IMG/VR virus record: IMGVR_UViG_3300021076_000071 | Location: 1 to 22,761 of that record | DNA from: a virus | Reading direction: 5' to 3' (one strand) | Length of the DNA: 22,761 nucleotides | In this document: positions 8,658 through 21,099 of the stretch, in pieces | How the letters are laid out: every line of letters begins with the position of its first letter | How positions within the stretch are numbered: the first letter of the stretch is position 1 | Notes under the pieces: model-generated | What the model saw: only the letters and a program-made list of their open reading frames with translations | Database searches by the model: none | Told to the model about the DNA's origin: nothing | Made by a program: the position numbers and the translations under genes

Positions 8658-11453
8658 TTAACGCATTAAATCTCGCAAAGGGTCCATAAATGGCTCATCT
8701 GTAAGATGCTGAGTTTGCGATTTTTCTATAGCGTATTGTGTACTAGGATTATCGTCTAATGTACCTGCTTCGTTATAGCGTGCATACTTGCCTATACAGT
8801 AAGTTCTATCGTATATGTCTTGTGACTTCATGTTTGAAGAATAATCCTGATTAATAGAATTCATCTTCTGATCCATATCCGCATAACCGCCATACTGTTC
8901 TACTAACAATGAGATAGCAGAAACAATATCATCGTGTTTGTCGTCACTTGTGCCAGTAAACTTTTCCATTTCGTCATATATTTCTTCCAACCCTTCACAA
9001 GAGTTCAAGAAATATAAACGATCATCTCCTAACAATCTAAGCACTGGCTTTGCTTTTAATTGCTTTGATCTTAATTTGCTTCCATGACCTAAAGAAACGT
9101 ATTCTACTGGAATGGAAACTTTTAAATTATCCATTTCGCGGCGTAATTCTTTACTAAACCATCTAACGCCTACTGAATCCTCAATAGCTATTCTTTTCGG
9201 TTTCCATTTATAACCTGTATTGGCTATAACTTTAGGCAAGTCATATTCACCGTAACGGCCCCTAACCATGTTAACGATATAGAATCTACCGCCAAATATA
9301 ATAGCCGTCATAATAACTGTATAATCGGCCCATGATTTTGTGCTATATGCAGTATCTACAGCAGTTACAACAATTCCTTGCCCGATTGGAGGCATTTGAC
9401 TATGTGGAATTGTTCTGCGTATTAGCAATTCTCTAGGAAACTTAACCGCATTCATCTTTCTAGGATTGTTTAAATACTTGATAGCAAAGGTGCTACCAGT
9501 TTTATCAGTTTTCTTTTCCTTAGAAAGAAATTCATAATCTAAACGATCTGGAAACCAAAGTATCCAATCGTCTTTAGTCATTTCCTCTTCAATTTTTCCA
9601 TTTTTTGTAGCAACTTCTGTAGGCCACCACGCGGCACGTAGATATAACTTACAATAAACAGAACTATTAAATCTACCACTATCTACTGATCCGAATATTC
9701 CCTCAACTATACCTTGTTCTTTAGCAAACTTTTCTTCTTGTCTAATTGTTAGACCATAGAAATCACAGTTATGTGAGCAGCATCCATCAGCAATGTAGTT
9801 ATGAGTTTCCGTTTCGAAACAATATGTCAATTCTTCGTCATAATCTTCAACAGATACTAAGTAATCTTTTTCTGTAATATTTTGTCCAAAAAGACTTTCT
9901 ATTAACACATCGTTTCGTGTTGGATTTATTTCTGTAACAAATTTATATCTAGCTTTCCAACCGCCCAATAATTTAAATTCATGCTTTTGGCTGCATCCTT
10001 CCGATTGTGATACGTATTCAGTATATTCAAAACCACAATCATCTAGAGACTTTCTCATACTATTTACAACTTCTGGATTGTGCTGTGTTTGGCAAATAGT
10101 TATAGTACCACTAGGTTGGTTCGGATTCTTTTGAAAACTTCCTTCCCCGTCGTACAAACCAGCAAGATAACCAGATTCCCTTGTGTTTTTCTTCTCTAGT
10201 GGTGTTAATAAACGTCTTACAAACTTTTGATCGTGATATTTAAATCCAATTGTTGCATACTCAGTGTTTTCAGAACCATTTGCGCCTTTCCACCACAAAT
10301 GATTATCAGTAGAAATTACAATACGTCCAGAATTAAATGTGTACTTATAAACATGTCTCAATTTAGGATCAAATACATTAGTTACTTTTGATTTTACCAA
10401 CATAGAGCGTTTGCCGCGTTCATTGGTAAATCCAACAACTTCGTCTCCTATTTTAATATCCATAATTGGTTTTTGTGACCAATCAGACATTGTTATTAAA
10501 GTTTCTCCAACTAAACACTCATCGTACCATGTTCCAATAACATCAAAGAACCCATAAGGGTTCAACATGGCTTTGTTAATTTCAATCTGCTTGTTTATTT
10601 TAACAATTCTATCAGGTGTTTGGCTGTTCTCATTTGTAACCACATCGTCTAACTTTAGAATGTCAAAGTGCGAACCAGAAAGTGCTTGCTCAATAGAGGC
10701 TGCACGAACTGTAGGTTCTTTTTTCTCAGATTCCGCTGGAGTTTGGTATTCAAACATAGTTCCATCGGAAGGAGTTATGCAGTGTTCGGGAAACAATACT
10801 TGAAATAGACTTTCAGACCACTCGCCTGTTATTTTATCCATTATGGCGCGTGGTGCGTGCATCATCTTCTTCTTTAAGTTGAATTCACCTGTTTCTTCTA
10901 ATGTAAAGTGTCTTTTAATTTCGCCAACGAAATCGCCAGCTAGGTCATAAACTCCGGTTAAAATTAGAATAGTTATAGCCGGAAAACAAATAACCCATTG
11001 AATGCAATCTGCCATATCAATGCTAGATTTAAAACCGCCTCTAGGGACTAGTAACATTCTATCTTTTAAATCTGGATATTGATTGGCAAAATCCTTGAAT
11101 GTTGTAAATGTAGGGTCTTTCTTAACGAAAAAGTTATTACATATCTCTTCATGAGTTTCAATAGTAGTTTCGTTATAACTCTCTAGTAGGTGACACAAAA
11201 AGAATAAATTAGTTTGAGACATGAAACGATATTTTAATAAATCGTTAATTTCTTCTACCGATAAATCATCTACTTTTTCTTTGTCTAATTTAATTGCCCA
11301 TGATTGTAGAACTGTCTGCTGTGTTTTATTTGATAACTTGTAAAAGCTTTTTACTGCTTTAGTTTGAAATTCATCATCAGATATGTTCTTATATTGGTAA
11401 TTGGGTGAGTGTCTGCATGTGTTATATAACTCTTTTAACTTTTCTAATTTCAT
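8658..11453 (-). CDS. Large terminase subunit (packaging ATPase-nuclease) with intein
   Basis: The 931-residue precursor holds a two-part terminase of 681 residues after splicing. The ATPase half has an adenine-binding helix region, a Walker A motif PRGGFKSS (137-144) and a Walker B motif FDILKLDD (263-270). The following DVIGTWYDE (304-312) is interrupted by an intein (313-562) and resumes as CDFYG. The nuclease half has the RNase H-like acidic residues VTAVD (D700), IAIED (E758, D759) and DDKHDDIVSA (D841, D842). It drives DNA into the prohead through the portal and cuts concatemers. Active enzyme needs intein removal. No small terminase gene is recognisable; one of the small genes just upstream may serve. 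A GGGGGA site precedes the ATG. Confidence 0.95.
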   Translation of the reverse strand: MKLEKLKELYNTCRHSPNYQYKNISDDEFQTKAVKSFYKLSNKTQQTVLQSWAIKLDKEKVDDLSVEEINDLLKYRFMSQTNLFFLCHLLESYNETTIETHEEICNNFFVKKDPTFTTFKDFANQYPDLKDRMLLVPRGGFKSSIDMADCIQWVICFPAITILILTGVYDLAGDFVGEIKRHFTLEETGEFNLKKKMMHAPRAIMDKITGEWSESLFQVLFPEHCITPSDGTMFEYQTPAESEKKEPTVRAASIEQALSGSHFDILKLDDVVTNENSQTPDRIVKINKQIEINKAMLNPYGFFDVIGTWYDECLVGETLITMSDWSQKPIMDIKIGDEVVGFTNERGKRSMLVKSKVTNVFDPKLRHVYKYTFNSGRIVISTDNHLWWKGANGSENTEYATIGFKYHDQKFVRRLLTPLEKKNTRESGYLAGLYDGEGSFQKNPNQPSGTITICQTQHNPEVVNSMRKSLDDCGFEYTEYVSQSEGCSQKHEFKLLGGWKARYKFVTEINPTRNDVLIESLFGQNITEKDYLVSVEDYDEELTYCFETETHNYIADGCCSHNCDFYGLTIRQEEKFAKEQGIVEGIFGSVDSGRFNSSVYCKLYLRAAWWPTEVATKNGKIEEEMTKDDWILWFPDRLDYEFLSKEKKTDKTGSTFAIKYLNNPRKMNAVKFPRELLIRRTIPHSQMPPIGQGIVVTAVDTAYSTKSWADYTVIMTAIIFGGRFYIVNMVRGRYGEYDLPKVIANTGYKWKPKRIAIEDSVGVRWFSKELRREMDNLKVSIPVEYVSLGHGSKLRSKQLKAKPVLRLLGDDRLYFLNSCEGLEEIYDEMEKFTGTSDDKHDDIVSAISLLVEQYGGYADMDQKMNSINQDYSSNMKSQDIYDRTYCIGKYARYNEAGTLDDNPSTQYAIEKSQTQHLTDEPFMDPLRDLMR
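9768..10517 (-). mobile_element. Intein in terminase, with one LAGLIDADG motif
   Basis: Residues 313-562 of the terminase precursor (250 aa) form an intein. Splicing blocks are clear: an N-terminal CLVGETLIT (nucleophile C313), block B STDNHLW (T382, H385), block F TYCFETETHNYIADG, and the C-terminal SHN (H561, N562) followed by Cys563 as the +1 residue. One LAGLIDADG motif, GYLAGLYDGEGSF (about 428-440), is present; a second copy is not obvious, so the homing endonuclease is small or degenerate. The insertion lies in the conserved segment after Walker B, where loss of the intein leaves essential residues joined, a typical choice of selfish inteins. Confidence 0.95.
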
Positions 11454-17172: not shown

Positions 17173-17448
17173 TTAATTTCCTAAGAACGATAGAACATCA
17201 TTCATTGTGCCCGTAATCCATAATTGATTTGTATTGCTGCCTGAGAATGGAGCTTGTTGCCCTGCTCCTAAGATAAAACCTGTAGAAGAGGTTACTGCTG
17301 GATTGGGACTAATTTCAATAGATGCTGAATTTCCAGACTTAGCTGCTAATGTTCCACCATTCTGTAAAATATGAGCAGGGAGTTGTTGTGGTGTAGCACT
17401 TGCTGCAACAGTTACTTGAAACGCAACGGAATTACCGACTGATGGCAT
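17173..17448 (-). CDS. Small structural-type beta protein (91 aa)
   Basis: The first gene of the leftward late cluster. The product is Ala/Ser/Gly/Asn-rich with few charges (FQVTVAASATPQQLPAHILQ, then SASIEISPNPAVTSSTGFIL and NQLWITGTMNDVLSFLG). It looks like a small beta-sandwich. I recognise the pattern as a small unnamed phage protein that tends to lie near fibre or head genes. A TGGAG site lies six bases before the ATG, directly after a terminator-like hairpin, so its expression may depend on read-through. Confidence 0.8.
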   Translation of the reverse strand: MPSVGNSVAFQVTVAASATPQQLPAHILQNGGTLAAKSGNSASIEISPNPAVTSSTGFILGAGQQAPFSGSNTNQLWITGTMNDVLSFLGN

Positions 17449-17459
17449 TTTGACTCCAG

Positions 17460-17492
17460 AAAAAGCAAAAGGGACCAGATTATTCCAGTCCC
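17460..17492 (-). terminator. Terminator-like hairpin in the late leader (possible attenuator)
   Basis: On the minus-strand RNA, GGGACTGG and CTGGTCCC pair (8 bp with two G-U pairs) around an AATAAT loop, followed at once by TTTTGCTTTTT. This is the form of an intrinsic terminator, but it lies only about 12 bases before the first late ATG and inside the leader. It may stop early transcription until an antitermination event, or hold back the adjacent ribosome binding site. Confidence 0.6.
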
Positions 17493-17629
17493 TTCTTCTC
17501 CATATGTTATTGAATAATTGGACCGGCTAACGTCTTTCTCTCCGACTCAATTAGCAATTATTCAAATTTCAGGACGCCACAACGACAGACGAATCTGCCG
17601 TGGAGGAGGTGTGACGCCCTTTTCCCTTG
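17493..17629 (-). other. Structured leader upstream of the late cluster
   Basis: On the minus strand an 11-base perfect inverted repeat (17555-17565 with 17510-17520) encloses a further GCTAA/TTAGC stem (17555-17551 with 17530-17526), making a long hairpin with one 6-nt bulge and a loop containing GGAGAGAAA. Upstream is CGGCAGA-TTCG-TCTGTCG (17600-17583), a 7-bp stem with a UUCG loop, and before it ACCTCCTCCA (17610-17601), which could pair with GGAGG ribosome-binding sequences. Together these suggest a regulated RNA leader. Confidence 0.6.
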
Positions 17630-17635
17630 TTTAAC

Positions 17636-17665
17636 CTTATACTACCATTTTACCACAGGTGTCAA
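17636..17665 (-). promoter_or_regulatory. Sigma-70 type promoter for the late cluster (proximal)
   Basis: On the minus strand a perfect -35 TTGACA (17665-17660), an 18-base spacer and -10 TATAAG (17641-17636, five of six). Transcription would start near 17629 and give a leader of about 180 nt to the gene at 17448. It lies about 590 bases downstream of a second, stronger minus promoter. Confidence 0.65.
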
Positions 17666-17726
17666 TAGTAAATAAACCGTTTGTTATCAACATAACAATA
17701 TTGTAACATGCTGATTCTATTTGATA

Positions 17727-17760
17727 TATAAAATAGACATTTATTGTAAACTATTTTATA
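17727..17760. repeat. Perfect 10-base inverted repeat in an AT-rich tract
   Basis: TATAAAATAG (17727-17736) and CTATTTTATA (17751-17760) are exact complements with 14 bases between. The surrounding 17666-17800 is very AT-rich, with a further overlapping CTATTT/AAATAG pair. Candidates are a melting region of a replication origin or an operator. No iterons are obvious. The stretch has no gene. Confidence 0.5.
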
Positions 17761-17910
17761 ATTATTTTTATCTATCTTATATTAATCTATAATCGTTTCA
17801 GGTGGAGAAGAGAAAGTATCTCCTTGACCCTACCAGTGAAAGTATAGAGTAGATAAGTTACTTATTAGATTTGTGGATGTAAAGTTATTAATTGTTTCAG
17901 TCTGGAGTTA

Positions 17911-18154
17911 GAGATTCTAATTCTTGGTCAATACCAGCGTATTAGTTACGCCCTGCGGGGTTCTTTCAGAAACGGCATCATGTAGATTGTACGGTATACA
18001 TGGGTCCGGGTTGTTTACGCATCCATCTGAAATGGTTTCCTGTATAACTACATCCACCTAGTTATACCTCAGTCCCTGTCTAATCAGGGAGCCGCAACCA
18101 CCTACCATTTGCGGTTGAATTTGAATAAATAAGGAGTCACCCTTTATTTTTCAA
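17911..18154 (-). ncRNA. Array of seven hairpins in the divergent region (candidate regulatory RNA)
   Basis: Within 245 bases these perfect stems follow each other (plus coordinates): TTAGA/TCTAA near 17917-17930, GCGTA/TACGC 17937-17951, TTTCAGA/TCTGAAA 17964-18032 enclosing CATGTA/TACATG, TATAACTA/TAGTTATA 18043-18066, TCCCTG/CAGGGA 18073-18090, CCGCAA/TTGCGG 18092-18114, and an AT-rich stem 18121-18154. No protein is encoded. A consensus minus promoter at 18222-18250 would transcribe the whole array leftwards, so I assign the minus strand. On that strand two loops share TAGGTGG. It matches no RNA family I know. Confidence 0.5.
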
Positions 18155-18221
18155 CAAGTTAAGGTTAAAATGGGCGATAGAGTACACCAAGGCCCATCGA
18201 GTATTATCTTATACAAACGCC

Positions 18222-18250
18222 ATTATATCAAAGAACGAGTTGTTTGTCAA
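18222..18250 (-). promoter_or_regulatory. Consensus leftward promoter
   Basis: On the minus strand TTGACA (18250-18245), a 17-base spacer and TATAAT (18227-18222), a full match to the sigma-70 consensus. Start of transcription is expected near 18215. The RNA would run through the hairpin array and AT-rich tract towards the late genes. Its -35 box lies 25 bases from the -35 box of the rightward promoter. Confidence 0.85.
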
Positions 18251-18275: not shown

Positions 18276-18304
18276 TTGACAAAAATTCTTTTCTGTAGTA
18301 TAAT
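18276..18304 (+). promoter_or_regulatory. Consensus rightward promoter for the DNA polymerase gene
   Basis: TTGACA (18276-18281), 17 bases, TATAAT (18299-18304), a full consensus match. The expected start point (18311-18313) coincides with the polymerase ATG at 18313, so the mRNA would have almost no leader. Confidence 0.87.
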
Positions 18305-18312
18305 CTGACTCA

Positions 18313-21099
18313 ATGATTATAAAGGAAAGAGAACTTAAACCGATTGTCTTAAATCCACCACCAAACATCATCAAGGTATTAGATGATGCTGGTGTCGAAA
18401 AGTTGCTTGAATTTTTAGAGAATAATAAAGAAGTAGGTTTCGATATTGAAACTTCTCTACATAAAGACTTTTGGTTTCGCAGAGTTAGAACAATCCAGTT
18501 CGGCAACAATAACGTTCAATATGTTATTGATGTAAAAGCCTTCTGCAACAATAACTCTGATCTTTTATTTAATTGTCAAGGAGAATACGGTAAGAGTTTA
18601 TTTAAGTCACCTAGATTAAAAGAATTATTAGGAAAACTGGAACCTTACTTATGCTCAAATAAAATTACCAAAGTTGGTGTGAACCTTGGGTTCGAATATC
18701 TCTGCTTCTATTGGTCATTTGGTCTACGTATATGGGGTCTATACGATTGCATGTTGGCAGAAAAGTGTATCTATGCAGGAATGAGCGGCAAAGCATCACT
18801 TAAAAATTACGATTTCTATGCCATGGAATCAATGGTCGAGCGTTACTTTGGATTCTTAATTGACAAAGAACTGCAAACATCGTTTAATCTAGATGATGAA
18901 ATTTCAAATGCACAATATGAATACGCCGCACTTGATACACGCATTCCGCTTGCGATTAAAATTATGCAAACGATCATTGCCTCTGGTGAGACACCCGCAA
19001 GCTTGAGAAAAAAAGGAAAGCACAGTATTGCAGAACATTTTGATTATCTAGACAGTATACTTTTTGGAGATGTACTACACGAACCGATTAGAATTGAAAA
19101 CGAAGCCATCGGTGCATTTCAAGATATGCACCTTCATGGGGAGCGTGTTGATACTGTTAAGTGGTTAGCTCGTGTTGAAAAAGCTGAAAAAGGATTGGTA
19201 GAAGTACTGCACAAATTAGATGAAGTCTTTGTTCCAATTGTGGGATCGAAGAATGAAGCAATCGATGAAGCAAAGATTGAAGATTTGGAACAACATTGGA
19301 AATTACTAACTGCCCCATCGTTCGCAGAATTAGAGTTAAAGTTAGAAGTAAAAGGGCTGAGTAAATGGGTAAAAAATAATCCATTTCAGTTTGATGGAAT
19401 TGTCGAAAAACAGGATTATCTTTCCGAAAGATTGAAACAATTGACAGAGTTAGAAACTTTGCGTAAAGCTGAAAAAGAATTACTTAAAAAAGAATGCAGC
19501 GAATTAAAAAAGAAACGCACCAAGATTAACAACCTGAAAGAAAAGTGTGAAGGTGAGGCACTGATTAACTATAGCTCAGATGCCCAATTGCTTGTAGTTT
19601 TAAAAGAAAATTTTCCAAAGCTTAAAAAATTAGACTGTCTGGATGATGAAACTTTAGAAGAGTATGAAAATGTTCCTGTGATGAAACTGATTCGTGAATA
19701 TCATGGATTAGCAAAGGAAATCGGAACATACGGAACTGCATGGGCGCAAAAGTGGAGTACCCACCCGTGCAAGGAAGAAGGCTGGCTACACCCTCAAGAC
19801 GGCAGATTACATCCGAACTATAATCAATATGATGCTGACACAGGGCGTAGCAGTTCTTCACAACCTAATGGTCAGAATCTACCCCAAGGCGAAGAGACAA
19901 GAAGTTGCTTCATCGCTGACCCACCTAACGAAGATATTAGAATTAGTAATTGTTGCAATGCAGAAACAGAATATACACCACCGTTCGATTATGCAACTTG
20001 TAAGCAGTGTGGAAATTTATGTAACACACACGCAGAAGAATATGAAATTGTCACAGCCGATATGTCGGGCGCAGAACTTCGTATTATTGCAGAAGATTCT
20101 GGCGATCCAGTTTGGATTCTAGCTTTTGCTAAAGGTGAGGATGTTCACTCAGTAGGAACAGAACTTTTGTATGAAGATATTTGGCTCAACGAAACATTGC
20201 GTTCAATTTTCCATCCTGATAAATGGACATTACAAGATTGTAAAGACGAAGTAGTTCTTGAAATTGACAAAGGCGGTGGTAAAGTAAAGAAGATTGGGCC
20301 GTGTGCATATTATGCGTATAAGGATAACGGAGAATTAGCACATCATAAATGCGACTGTCCGATGCACAAAGAGCGCCGTGACCATAACAAAGCTACTAAC
20401 TTCTTGCTGGCTTATGGCGGCGGTGCGCCCACACTGGCTAAAAGAATTAAGCAACCGTTGAAAGTTGCAAAACATCTAATGGCTTTGCATGAAGAGAAAA
20501 ACCCGAAAATTTGGGCCTATCTCAAGAAGTCTGGTGAAAAAGCTGGCCGAGAGTTTAAAGCATTTGATTTATATGGACGTAGGCGGTTACTTCCAGAACC
20601 AACATACGAACGTGCAACTGAAAATTGTAAGGAATATAATGAACAAAAATTAAGGCTTTCAGAAGCAGATATAGCAATGAACATTAATGCGTTCATTCTT
20701 GCTAAAGGAAGAAAACCAACTGCTGATGAAAAATTTGAATTGACGCATCGTAAGCCTACAGCTAGTGAAATTGGACAAAGTTATTATCAAATGTCTAACA
20801 GTATCGAGCGTCAGGGCAAGAATATGCGGATTCAAGGCACCAACGCATCCATAGCGAAGATTGCAATGGGATGCGGTTATGATCCTGATGGTAAACCGTT
20901 CTTGTGGCACACTTTACCATTATATAGAGCAAAACTAATCAAATTCGTACACGATGAACTGGTCGTTCAATGCCCAAAACAATATTCAAAGCAAGTTGCT
21001 GCGTTAATTGGTGATGCGTTCAAAAGGGCGGCGGCAATCAAAATGAAACAAGTTATTATGGAATTTGATTATAATATAGCGGCGTATTGGAGCAAATAA
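18313..21099 (+). CDS. DNA polymerase, family A (3'-5' exonuclease plus polymerase)
   Basis: The 928-residue protein has an exonuclease domain with Exo I FDIETS (43-48), Exo II VGVNLGFEY (121-129) and Exo III YAALDTR (204-210). After a long helical region comes the polymerase domain: DTGRSSSSQPNGQNLP (509-524), motif A TADMSGAELR with D583, motif B around KATNFLLAYGG (K693, Y701), RQGKNMRIQGTNASIAK (833-849) and motif C VHDELV with D881. There is no 5'-3' exonuclease domain. It replicates the phage genome. Two Cys-rich inserts stand out: C547/C548/C563/C566/C570 just before motif A, and C643/C664/C680/C682 between motifs A and B. ATG 18313 has no ribosome binding site upstream and lies at the likely transcript start. 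Confidence 0.96.
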   Translation: MIIKERELKPIVLNPPPNIIKVLDDAGVEKLLEFLENNKEVGFDIETSLHKDFWFRRVRTIQFGNNNVQYVIDVKAFCNNNSDLLFNCQGEYGKSLFKSPRLKELLGKLEPYLCSNKITKVGVNLGFEYLCFYWSFGLRIWGLYDCMLAEKCIYAGMSGKASLKNYDFYAMESMVERYFGFLIDKELQTSFNLDDEISNAQYEYAALDTRIPLAIKIMQTIIASGETPASLRKKGKHSIAEHFDYLDSILFGDVLHEPIRIENEAIGAFQDMHLHGERVDTVKWLARVEKAEKGLVEVLHKLDEVFVPIVGSKNEAIDEAKIEDLEQHWKLLTAPSFAELELKLEVKGLSKWVKNNPFQFDGIVEKQDYLSERLKQLTELETLRKAEKELLKKECSELKKKRTKINNLKEKCEGEALINYSSDAQLLVVLKENFPKLKKLDCLDDETLEEYENVPVMKLIREYHGLAKEIGTYGTAWAQKWSTHPCKEEGWLHPQDGRLHPNYNQYDADTGRSSSSQPNGQNLPQGEETRSCFIADPPNEDIRISNCCNAETEYTPPFDYATCKQCGNLCNTHAEEYEIVTADMSGAELRIIAEDSGDPVWILAFAKGEDVHSVGTELLYEDIWLNETLRSIFHPDKWTLQDCKDEVVLEIDKGGGKVKKIGPCAYYAYKDNGELAHHKCDCPMHKERRDHNKATNFLLAYGGGAPTLAKRIKQPLKVAKHLMALHEEKNPKIWAYLKKSGEKAGREFKAFDLYGRRRLLPEPTYERATENCKEYNEQKLRLSEADIAMNINAFILAKGRKPTADEKFELTHRKPTASEIGQSYYQMSNSIERQGKNMRIQGTNASIAKIAMGCGYDPDGKPFLWHTLPLYRAKLIKFVHDELVVQCPKQYSKQVAALIGDAFKRAAAIKMKQVIMEFDYNIAAYWSK

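Follow-up and report, generated by a model that had tools for sequence, protein, structure and literature searches.

Results

A probable structured RNA gene at the divergent polA locus

The space between the DNA polymerase gene and the structural genes of an uncultured phage family with genomes of ~100 kb very probably contains a separate gene for a structured noncoding RNA of ~410 nt. The gene would lie on the minus strand at the switch between the divergent polA and structural genes, and, judged by alignment with relatives, the fold of the RNA is kept more than its letters. We refer to it as the class A RNA. We analyzed a 22.8-kb piece (22,761 nucleotides) of the IMG/VR virus record IMGVR_UViG_3300021076_000071, which we call the window. 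The structural genes on its minus strand encode a terminase with an intein-like insert, an SU10-like portal and a major head protein. The features described here are listed in Table 1.

Table 1. Features of the polA-structural gene region of the window.
Feature	Position	Strand	Evidence or comment
polA, family A DNA polymerase with 3'-5' exonuclease domain	18313..21099	+	Pfam DNA_pol_A 1e-48, DNA_pol_A_exo1 1e-17
polA promoter, perfect sigma70, divergent	18276..18304	+	promoter scan
ncRNA promoter, perfect sigma70, TTGACA-17-TATAAT, 12/12, TG before -10	18222..18250	-	promoter scan
Class A structured ncRNA gene (probable)	17803..18215	-	both ends inferred: start from promoter, end from last conserved hairpin
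5' hairpin ATGGGC/GCCCAT	18170..18197	-	present in window
AT-rich hairpin upstream of core	18127..18149	-	seen in window; not aligned to relatives
Conserved core, 44 base pairs in 9 helices	17921..18112	-	model R1 bits: window 217.5, L002/L007 181.6, L005 67.2
P3	18106-18104 with 17961-17959	-	long-range; encloses P4 and P7
P4	18100-18097 with 18036-18033	-	carries hairpins P5 and P6
P5 (TCCCTG/CAGGGA)	18074..18090	-	3/6 pairs compensatory
P6 (GTATAAC/GTTATAC in model)	18042..18067	-	6/7 pairs compensatory
P7 (TTTCAGA/TCTGAAA), long-range	17964..18032; 18032-18026 with 17970-17964	-	3/7 pairs compensatory
P9	CGG/CCG, 3x3 internal loop, then 18002-17997 with 17984-17979	-	inside P7
P10 and P11, consecutive hairpins after P7	17925..17950	-	2/4 and 3/4 pairs compensatory
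3' conserved block, CACTGGTARGGTCAAGGAGATAC... hairpin, 35 nt	17805..17839	-	alignment with L002, 89% identical
AT-rich block, directly downstream of RNA	17692..17793	none	base composition; lowest-GC 100 bases of window (15%)
Promoter-like site, 11/12, before structural operon	17636..17665	-	similar sites in relatives
Leader hairpin, one-sided CCUCCUCC bulge, separate from ncRNA	17572..17619	-	same-register pairing in 16/18 lineages (strict script)
Intrinsic-terminator-like hairpin just before first structural gene	17467..17496	-	terminator-like hairpins in several relatives

Two perfect sigma70 promoters lie back to back, one on each strand. The minus-strand promoter, called strong in the first-pass annotation of this DNA, matches the consensus perfectly, and the relatives L002 and L007 have a 12/12 promoter at the matching place. 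The RNA, with a probable start at ~18215, reaches past position 17911, as indicated by the 3' block shared with L002, and it contains no open reading frame longer than 46 aa.

Several other elements surround this locus. A promoter-like site on the plus strand (TAGACA-17-TATAAT, 11/12, 17734-17762) lies past the 3' end of the RNA and would read antisense across it; it was not seen as conserved in relatives. The insert in the terminase large subunit (8658-11453, minus strand) is of the LAGLIDADG/HNH type and is probably an intein. Relatives also have tRNAs beyond polA, as well as a permuted tmRNA (Rfam RF04321) that we found on the plus strand ~0.6-1.9 kb after polA in L002, L004, L005, L006, L008, L009 and L013. 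No such tmRNA was found in the window, whose end lies close to the corresponding position. By polA, the nearest isolate (52.7% identity over 96% of the protein) is the Tunturiibacter phage Tunturi_3, a 97.6-kb podovirus with a host in the Acidobacteriota (PMC11924767).

Covariation supports a multibranched fold

The decisive evidence for the fold is covariation; folding energy alone was not convincing. The overall folding energy of the region was unremarkable (z of -1.1 for the minus strand and -2.0 for the plus strand). The stems described in the first-pass annotation, including the 5' hairpin, are present where it placed them and exceed what is expected from base composition: the stretch 17911-18210 has five perfect local stems of 6 bp or more, compared with 0.69 +/- 0.77 in dinucleotide shuffles (0 of 300 had as many), and six of 5 bp or more, compared with 2.5 (1 of 300).

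We looked for the RNA in relatives of the phage, first in 13 polA relatives and later in 79 loci that aligned to polA, a set that partly repeats the 13. Upstream of polA, L002 (to which L007 is identical here) and L005 have a recognizable class A homologue on the minus strand; with the window, the collections searched contain three distinct class A sequences. In a plain MAFFT alignment, the window and L002 have 44 base pairs in nine helices in common, and all 15 pairs that differ on both sides still pair, the structure itself having been written from these same two sequences. A covariance model built from the window and L002 independently found L005 (67 bits, E 1e-17; E-values for this model, R1, and for the class B model R2 below are rough because calibration was short). 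It had no other match in 0.67 Mb of related loci.

Across the three sequences, in an alignment that was fitted to the model and therefore leans towards the structure, 19 of the 44 pairs were compensatory and 99.2% of cells paired. None of 500 shuffles was as good, and structures slid along the alignment were 37-47% paired. The model was built from two sequences because the first MAFFT alignment of all three misaligned L005 around P5-P6; an extra P7 hairpin of L002 was trimmed, and the two-sequence model was then used to align L005. On the minus strand, the few non-Watson-Crick pairs were all G-U and a single cell was unpaired, consistent with an RNA that is read from that strand. Stem-breaking substitutions without compensation did not occur in L002 or L005. 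Together with the independent match by the model and the lack of an Rfam match (below), the covariation supports the proposal in the first-pass annotation that a new structured phage RNA lies downstream of the strong minus promoter.

The supported fold differs from the hairpin array in that annotation, and has the long-range helices P3 and P7 in addition to local hairpins. P7 encloses, in addition to P9, the conserved motifs RATGCGTRA and CGGACCCA; L002 and L005 have an extra hairpin inside P7 that is absent from the window. The stem CCGCAA/TTGCGG (18091-18113) is peculiar to the window. L002 and L005 instead have the conserved sequence GCGCAAA.GGTA in this stretch, whose 3' part has other supported pairings, GGU/ACC and TGGU/ACCA. 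The heptamer TAGGTGG does occur twice, at 18104-18098 and 18061-18055, as had been pointed out, but neither L002 nor L005 keeps it, and rather than forming a loop the first copy contributes to the 5' strands of two helices. This lack of conservation leaves the common ligand that had been suggested for it unsupported.

The class A RNA did not match known families. The window had no Rfam match at the gathering threshold and none at E<=10, and Rfam searches with the relatives L064 and L032 gave chance matches or none. A blastn search of the leader against phages and plasmids returned nothing beyond short, weak matches to unrelated records. Scanning viral contigs for exact patterns, we found no copy of the 26-nt P6 hairpin, and the class A core only in contigs that were already known. 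A looser scan for the core returned the known contigs and five other stretches, none of which matched R1; a scan of genome contigs returned four stretches, of which 0 of 4 matched R1.

Other structured RNAs occupy the same site in relatives

In most relatives, the noncoding stretch at this site holds a different, unrelated-looking structured RNA. Class B (model R2) was found in about 13 lineages, including Tunturi_3, with the weakest matches in L004 (E 5e-5) and L003 (E 0.007). Of 19 base pairs in the class B matches, 15 were compensatory, and each of the three near-complete genomes searched had a single match. Class C is a candidate class with a 5' element, GUAGCUUCGCGGCACUGCG...AACGGGCC, that we recognized by eye on the minus strand upstream of polA in L006, L008, L013, L025, L031 and L064. 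The element, also written GUAGCUUCGCGGCACUGCG...AAUUAACGGGCCGC, in L008 overlaps the stop codon of the RNase H gene (by eye). The class B model did not recognize the window RNA, and the class A model recognized neither the class B locus of L098 (Tunturi_3) nor the class C locus of L008. These searches, with filters off, gave no support for homology of class A with B or C.

The surroundings of the RNA are similar among lineages. An RNase HI-like gene adjoins the RNA in most other lineages, including L005, where the class A homologue sits behind it; the window and L002 lack it at this place. In many relatives a promoter of its own precedes the RNA, which sits between the RNase HI gene and the structural genes, and in L003-L006, L008, L025 and L064 it follows the RNase H gene without an obvious promoter of its own. 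An open reading frame for an HNH endonuclease or endonuclease VII starts on the minus strand close to the 3' end of the RNA in L002, L003, L004, L006, L008, L025 and L033; these were identified by reading, and by Pfam for three. L032 appears to hold the decayed remnant of such a gene. Because structured RNAs of other classes occupy the same place, the position seems to need an RNA whose sequence is replaceable. As homology among A, B and C was not demonstrable, a shared function is suggested by position.

The structural operon appears to have its own promoter and leader

The first structural gene, at 17448, is downstream from a promoter-like site, a hairpin with a one-sided bulge, and a terminator-like hairpin. 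The bulged hairpin has covarying stems on both sides of the bulge (18 lineages examined). Relatives show the same succession of promoter and CUCCUC hairpin, followed in several of them by a terminator-like hairpin, which indicates that the structural genes have a leader of their own and that the class A RNA need not be the leader of the operon. We found no intrinsic terminator between the RNA and the promoter-like site at 17665-17636, and read-through into the structural operon is therefore possible.

Two sequence motifs were noted in this region. The bulge, CUCCUC(C), resembles the anti-Shine-Dalgarno tail of 16S rRNA, and in Tunturi_3 CUCCUC is exactly complementary to a GAGGAG before the first structural gene. 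The motif TAGAATCA recurs in the AT-rich stretch before the promoter-like site in the window (~17700-17690, minus strand), L002, L009 and L027 and is a possible activator site.

Possible functions of the RNA

Our preferred reading, which we hold tentatively, is that this is a separate noncoding RNA gene that is transcribed from the onset of infection and whose product acts as a folded RNA in trans. From the promoter sequence, the conserved fold, the noncoding stretch and the fixed neighborhood, all of which are observed, we infer transcription, stability, action in trans and a partner. The host sigma70 polymerase would transcribe the RNA at a high rate once the DNA enters the cell, and the transcript would fold into the multibranched core and presumably be stable. 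It would then bind at least one phage or host protein, or assemble with itself, and would not act on the polymerase that makes it. It may also be a sponge or decoy RNA. GOLLD and ROOL are large structured RNAs of phages and prophages that are apparently noncoding and whose function is unresolved (PMC12286853). The class A RNA is also structured, phage-borne and apparently noncoding, and relatives have tRNAs and a permuted tmRNA nearby. However, in the window it had no covariance match to either family, at gathering or at E<=10. GOLLD is longer than 800 nt in many members, whereas the class A RNA would be ~410 nt. GOLLD and ROOL have an elaborate pseudoknotted fold, form a homo-oligomeric cage and lie near tRNA islands. 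The class A core supported here is smaller, with 44 nested pairs, and the RNA is beside polA; the window has two tRNAs at 13.7-13.9 kb.

Alternatively, the transcript could serve as a primer like RNA II of ColE1. It would remain paired with the DNA, either close to its 3' end or within the downstream AT-rich block; RNase HI would trim it and the phage family A polymerase would extend it, so that replication starts at the divergent locus. We consider this possible but doubtful. RNA II, which begins 550 bp upstream of its origin, is cut by RNase H and then elongated by Pol I (PMC5043065). The class A RNA resembles it, as it would be a structured transcript of similar length with a strong promoter, linked to a Pol I-type polymerase and to RNase H. 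All cases have polA alongside, the RNase HI-like gene is beside the RNA in most other lineages, and the distance from the promoter to the AT-rich block, the lowest-GC stretch of the window, is ~420-520 nt. The annotation of Tunturi_3 includes a primase/helicase and UvsX and lists no RNA polymerase. In three of four near-complete genomes, GC skew changes direction at this locus or close to it (Tunturi_3, G004 and G005; weak or none in G008), but we rejected this as proof of an origin as it is confounded by the divergent gene orientation and unclear in one of the four, and for that reason the primer reading stays a rival. Neither the window nor L002 has an RNase H gene next to the RNA (the host enzyme could take its place, as in ColE1), several relatives have HNH or endonuclease VII genes that separate the RNA from the AT-rich stretch, and the AT-rich block may be mere upstream DNA of the second promoter. 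Unlike RNA II, the class A RNA lies at a phage locus and had no Rfam match. RNA I, the antisense RNA of ColE1, covers the 5' end of RNA II, whereas the plus-strand promoter-like site at 17734-17762 lies past the 3' end of the class A RNA. A broader proposal would be that this family of ~100-kb soil phages initiates replication on a structured primer like RNA II. In it, host RNA polymerase makes the transcript, RNase HI of phage or host origin cuts it back, the phage family A polymerase elongates it, and one fold has given way to another several times (A, B and C) at a fixed origin. We consider this rather unlikely.

It is improbable that the RNA is a cis-acting antiterminator or leader for the leftward structural operon, similar to the put RNA of phage HK022, as the first-pass annotation had suggested among other options. 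The RNA is on the same strand as the operon, upstream of it and promoter-proximal, a terminator-like hairpin precedes the first gene, and in both systems hairpins are downstream of a strong phage promoter. But put RNA is ~70 nt with two stem-loops and acts in cis on RNA polymerase (PMC9378689), via the zinc-binding domain of the beta' subunit, whereas the class A RNA is multibranched, with nine helices, covarying or invariant, across 192 nt. Downstream of the RNA, the operon has a promoter-like site and conserved leader of its own, and HNH genes intervene in several relatives. We think it very improbable that the RNA functions in packaging as the pRNA of phi29 does, a ring of structured RNA on the portal: it too is phage-borne and structured, with a strong promoter and a sequence that diverges between relatives, but it is longer than pRNA, has no Rfam match, and is beside polA and not tied to terminase or portal genes. 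The chance is slimmer yet that it is the remnant of a self-splicing intron or homing element. The HNH or endonuclease VII genes near the 3' end of the RNA in seven relatives recall those elements, as well as HEARO and omega RNAs, which have an HNH gene beside a structured RNA. Against this, there is no Rfam intron or HEARO match at E<=10 in the window, the neighboring genes in relatives are small HNH or endonuclease VII genes and not IsrB or IscB, and they are absent from the window and many relatives. The RNA is intergenic, not inside a gene, has its own promoter, and persists without the endonuclease gene in, among others, the window, L005 and Tunturi_3.

There are few large structured phage RNAs, and what they do is unsolved; class A adds a family without an Rfam match. 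The presence of different folded RNAs at a fixed position beside polA and RNase HI links the RNA with replication or the early/late switch, which is a concrete hypothesis. Class B is a second, wider class, and because it is present in a cultured phage, Tunturi_3 on Tunturiibacter, its function can be tested in the laboratory. The class B RNA of Tunturi_3 is at L098 4379-4231 (minus strand) and at about 93.17-93.60 kb in PP885686, where it is unannotated.
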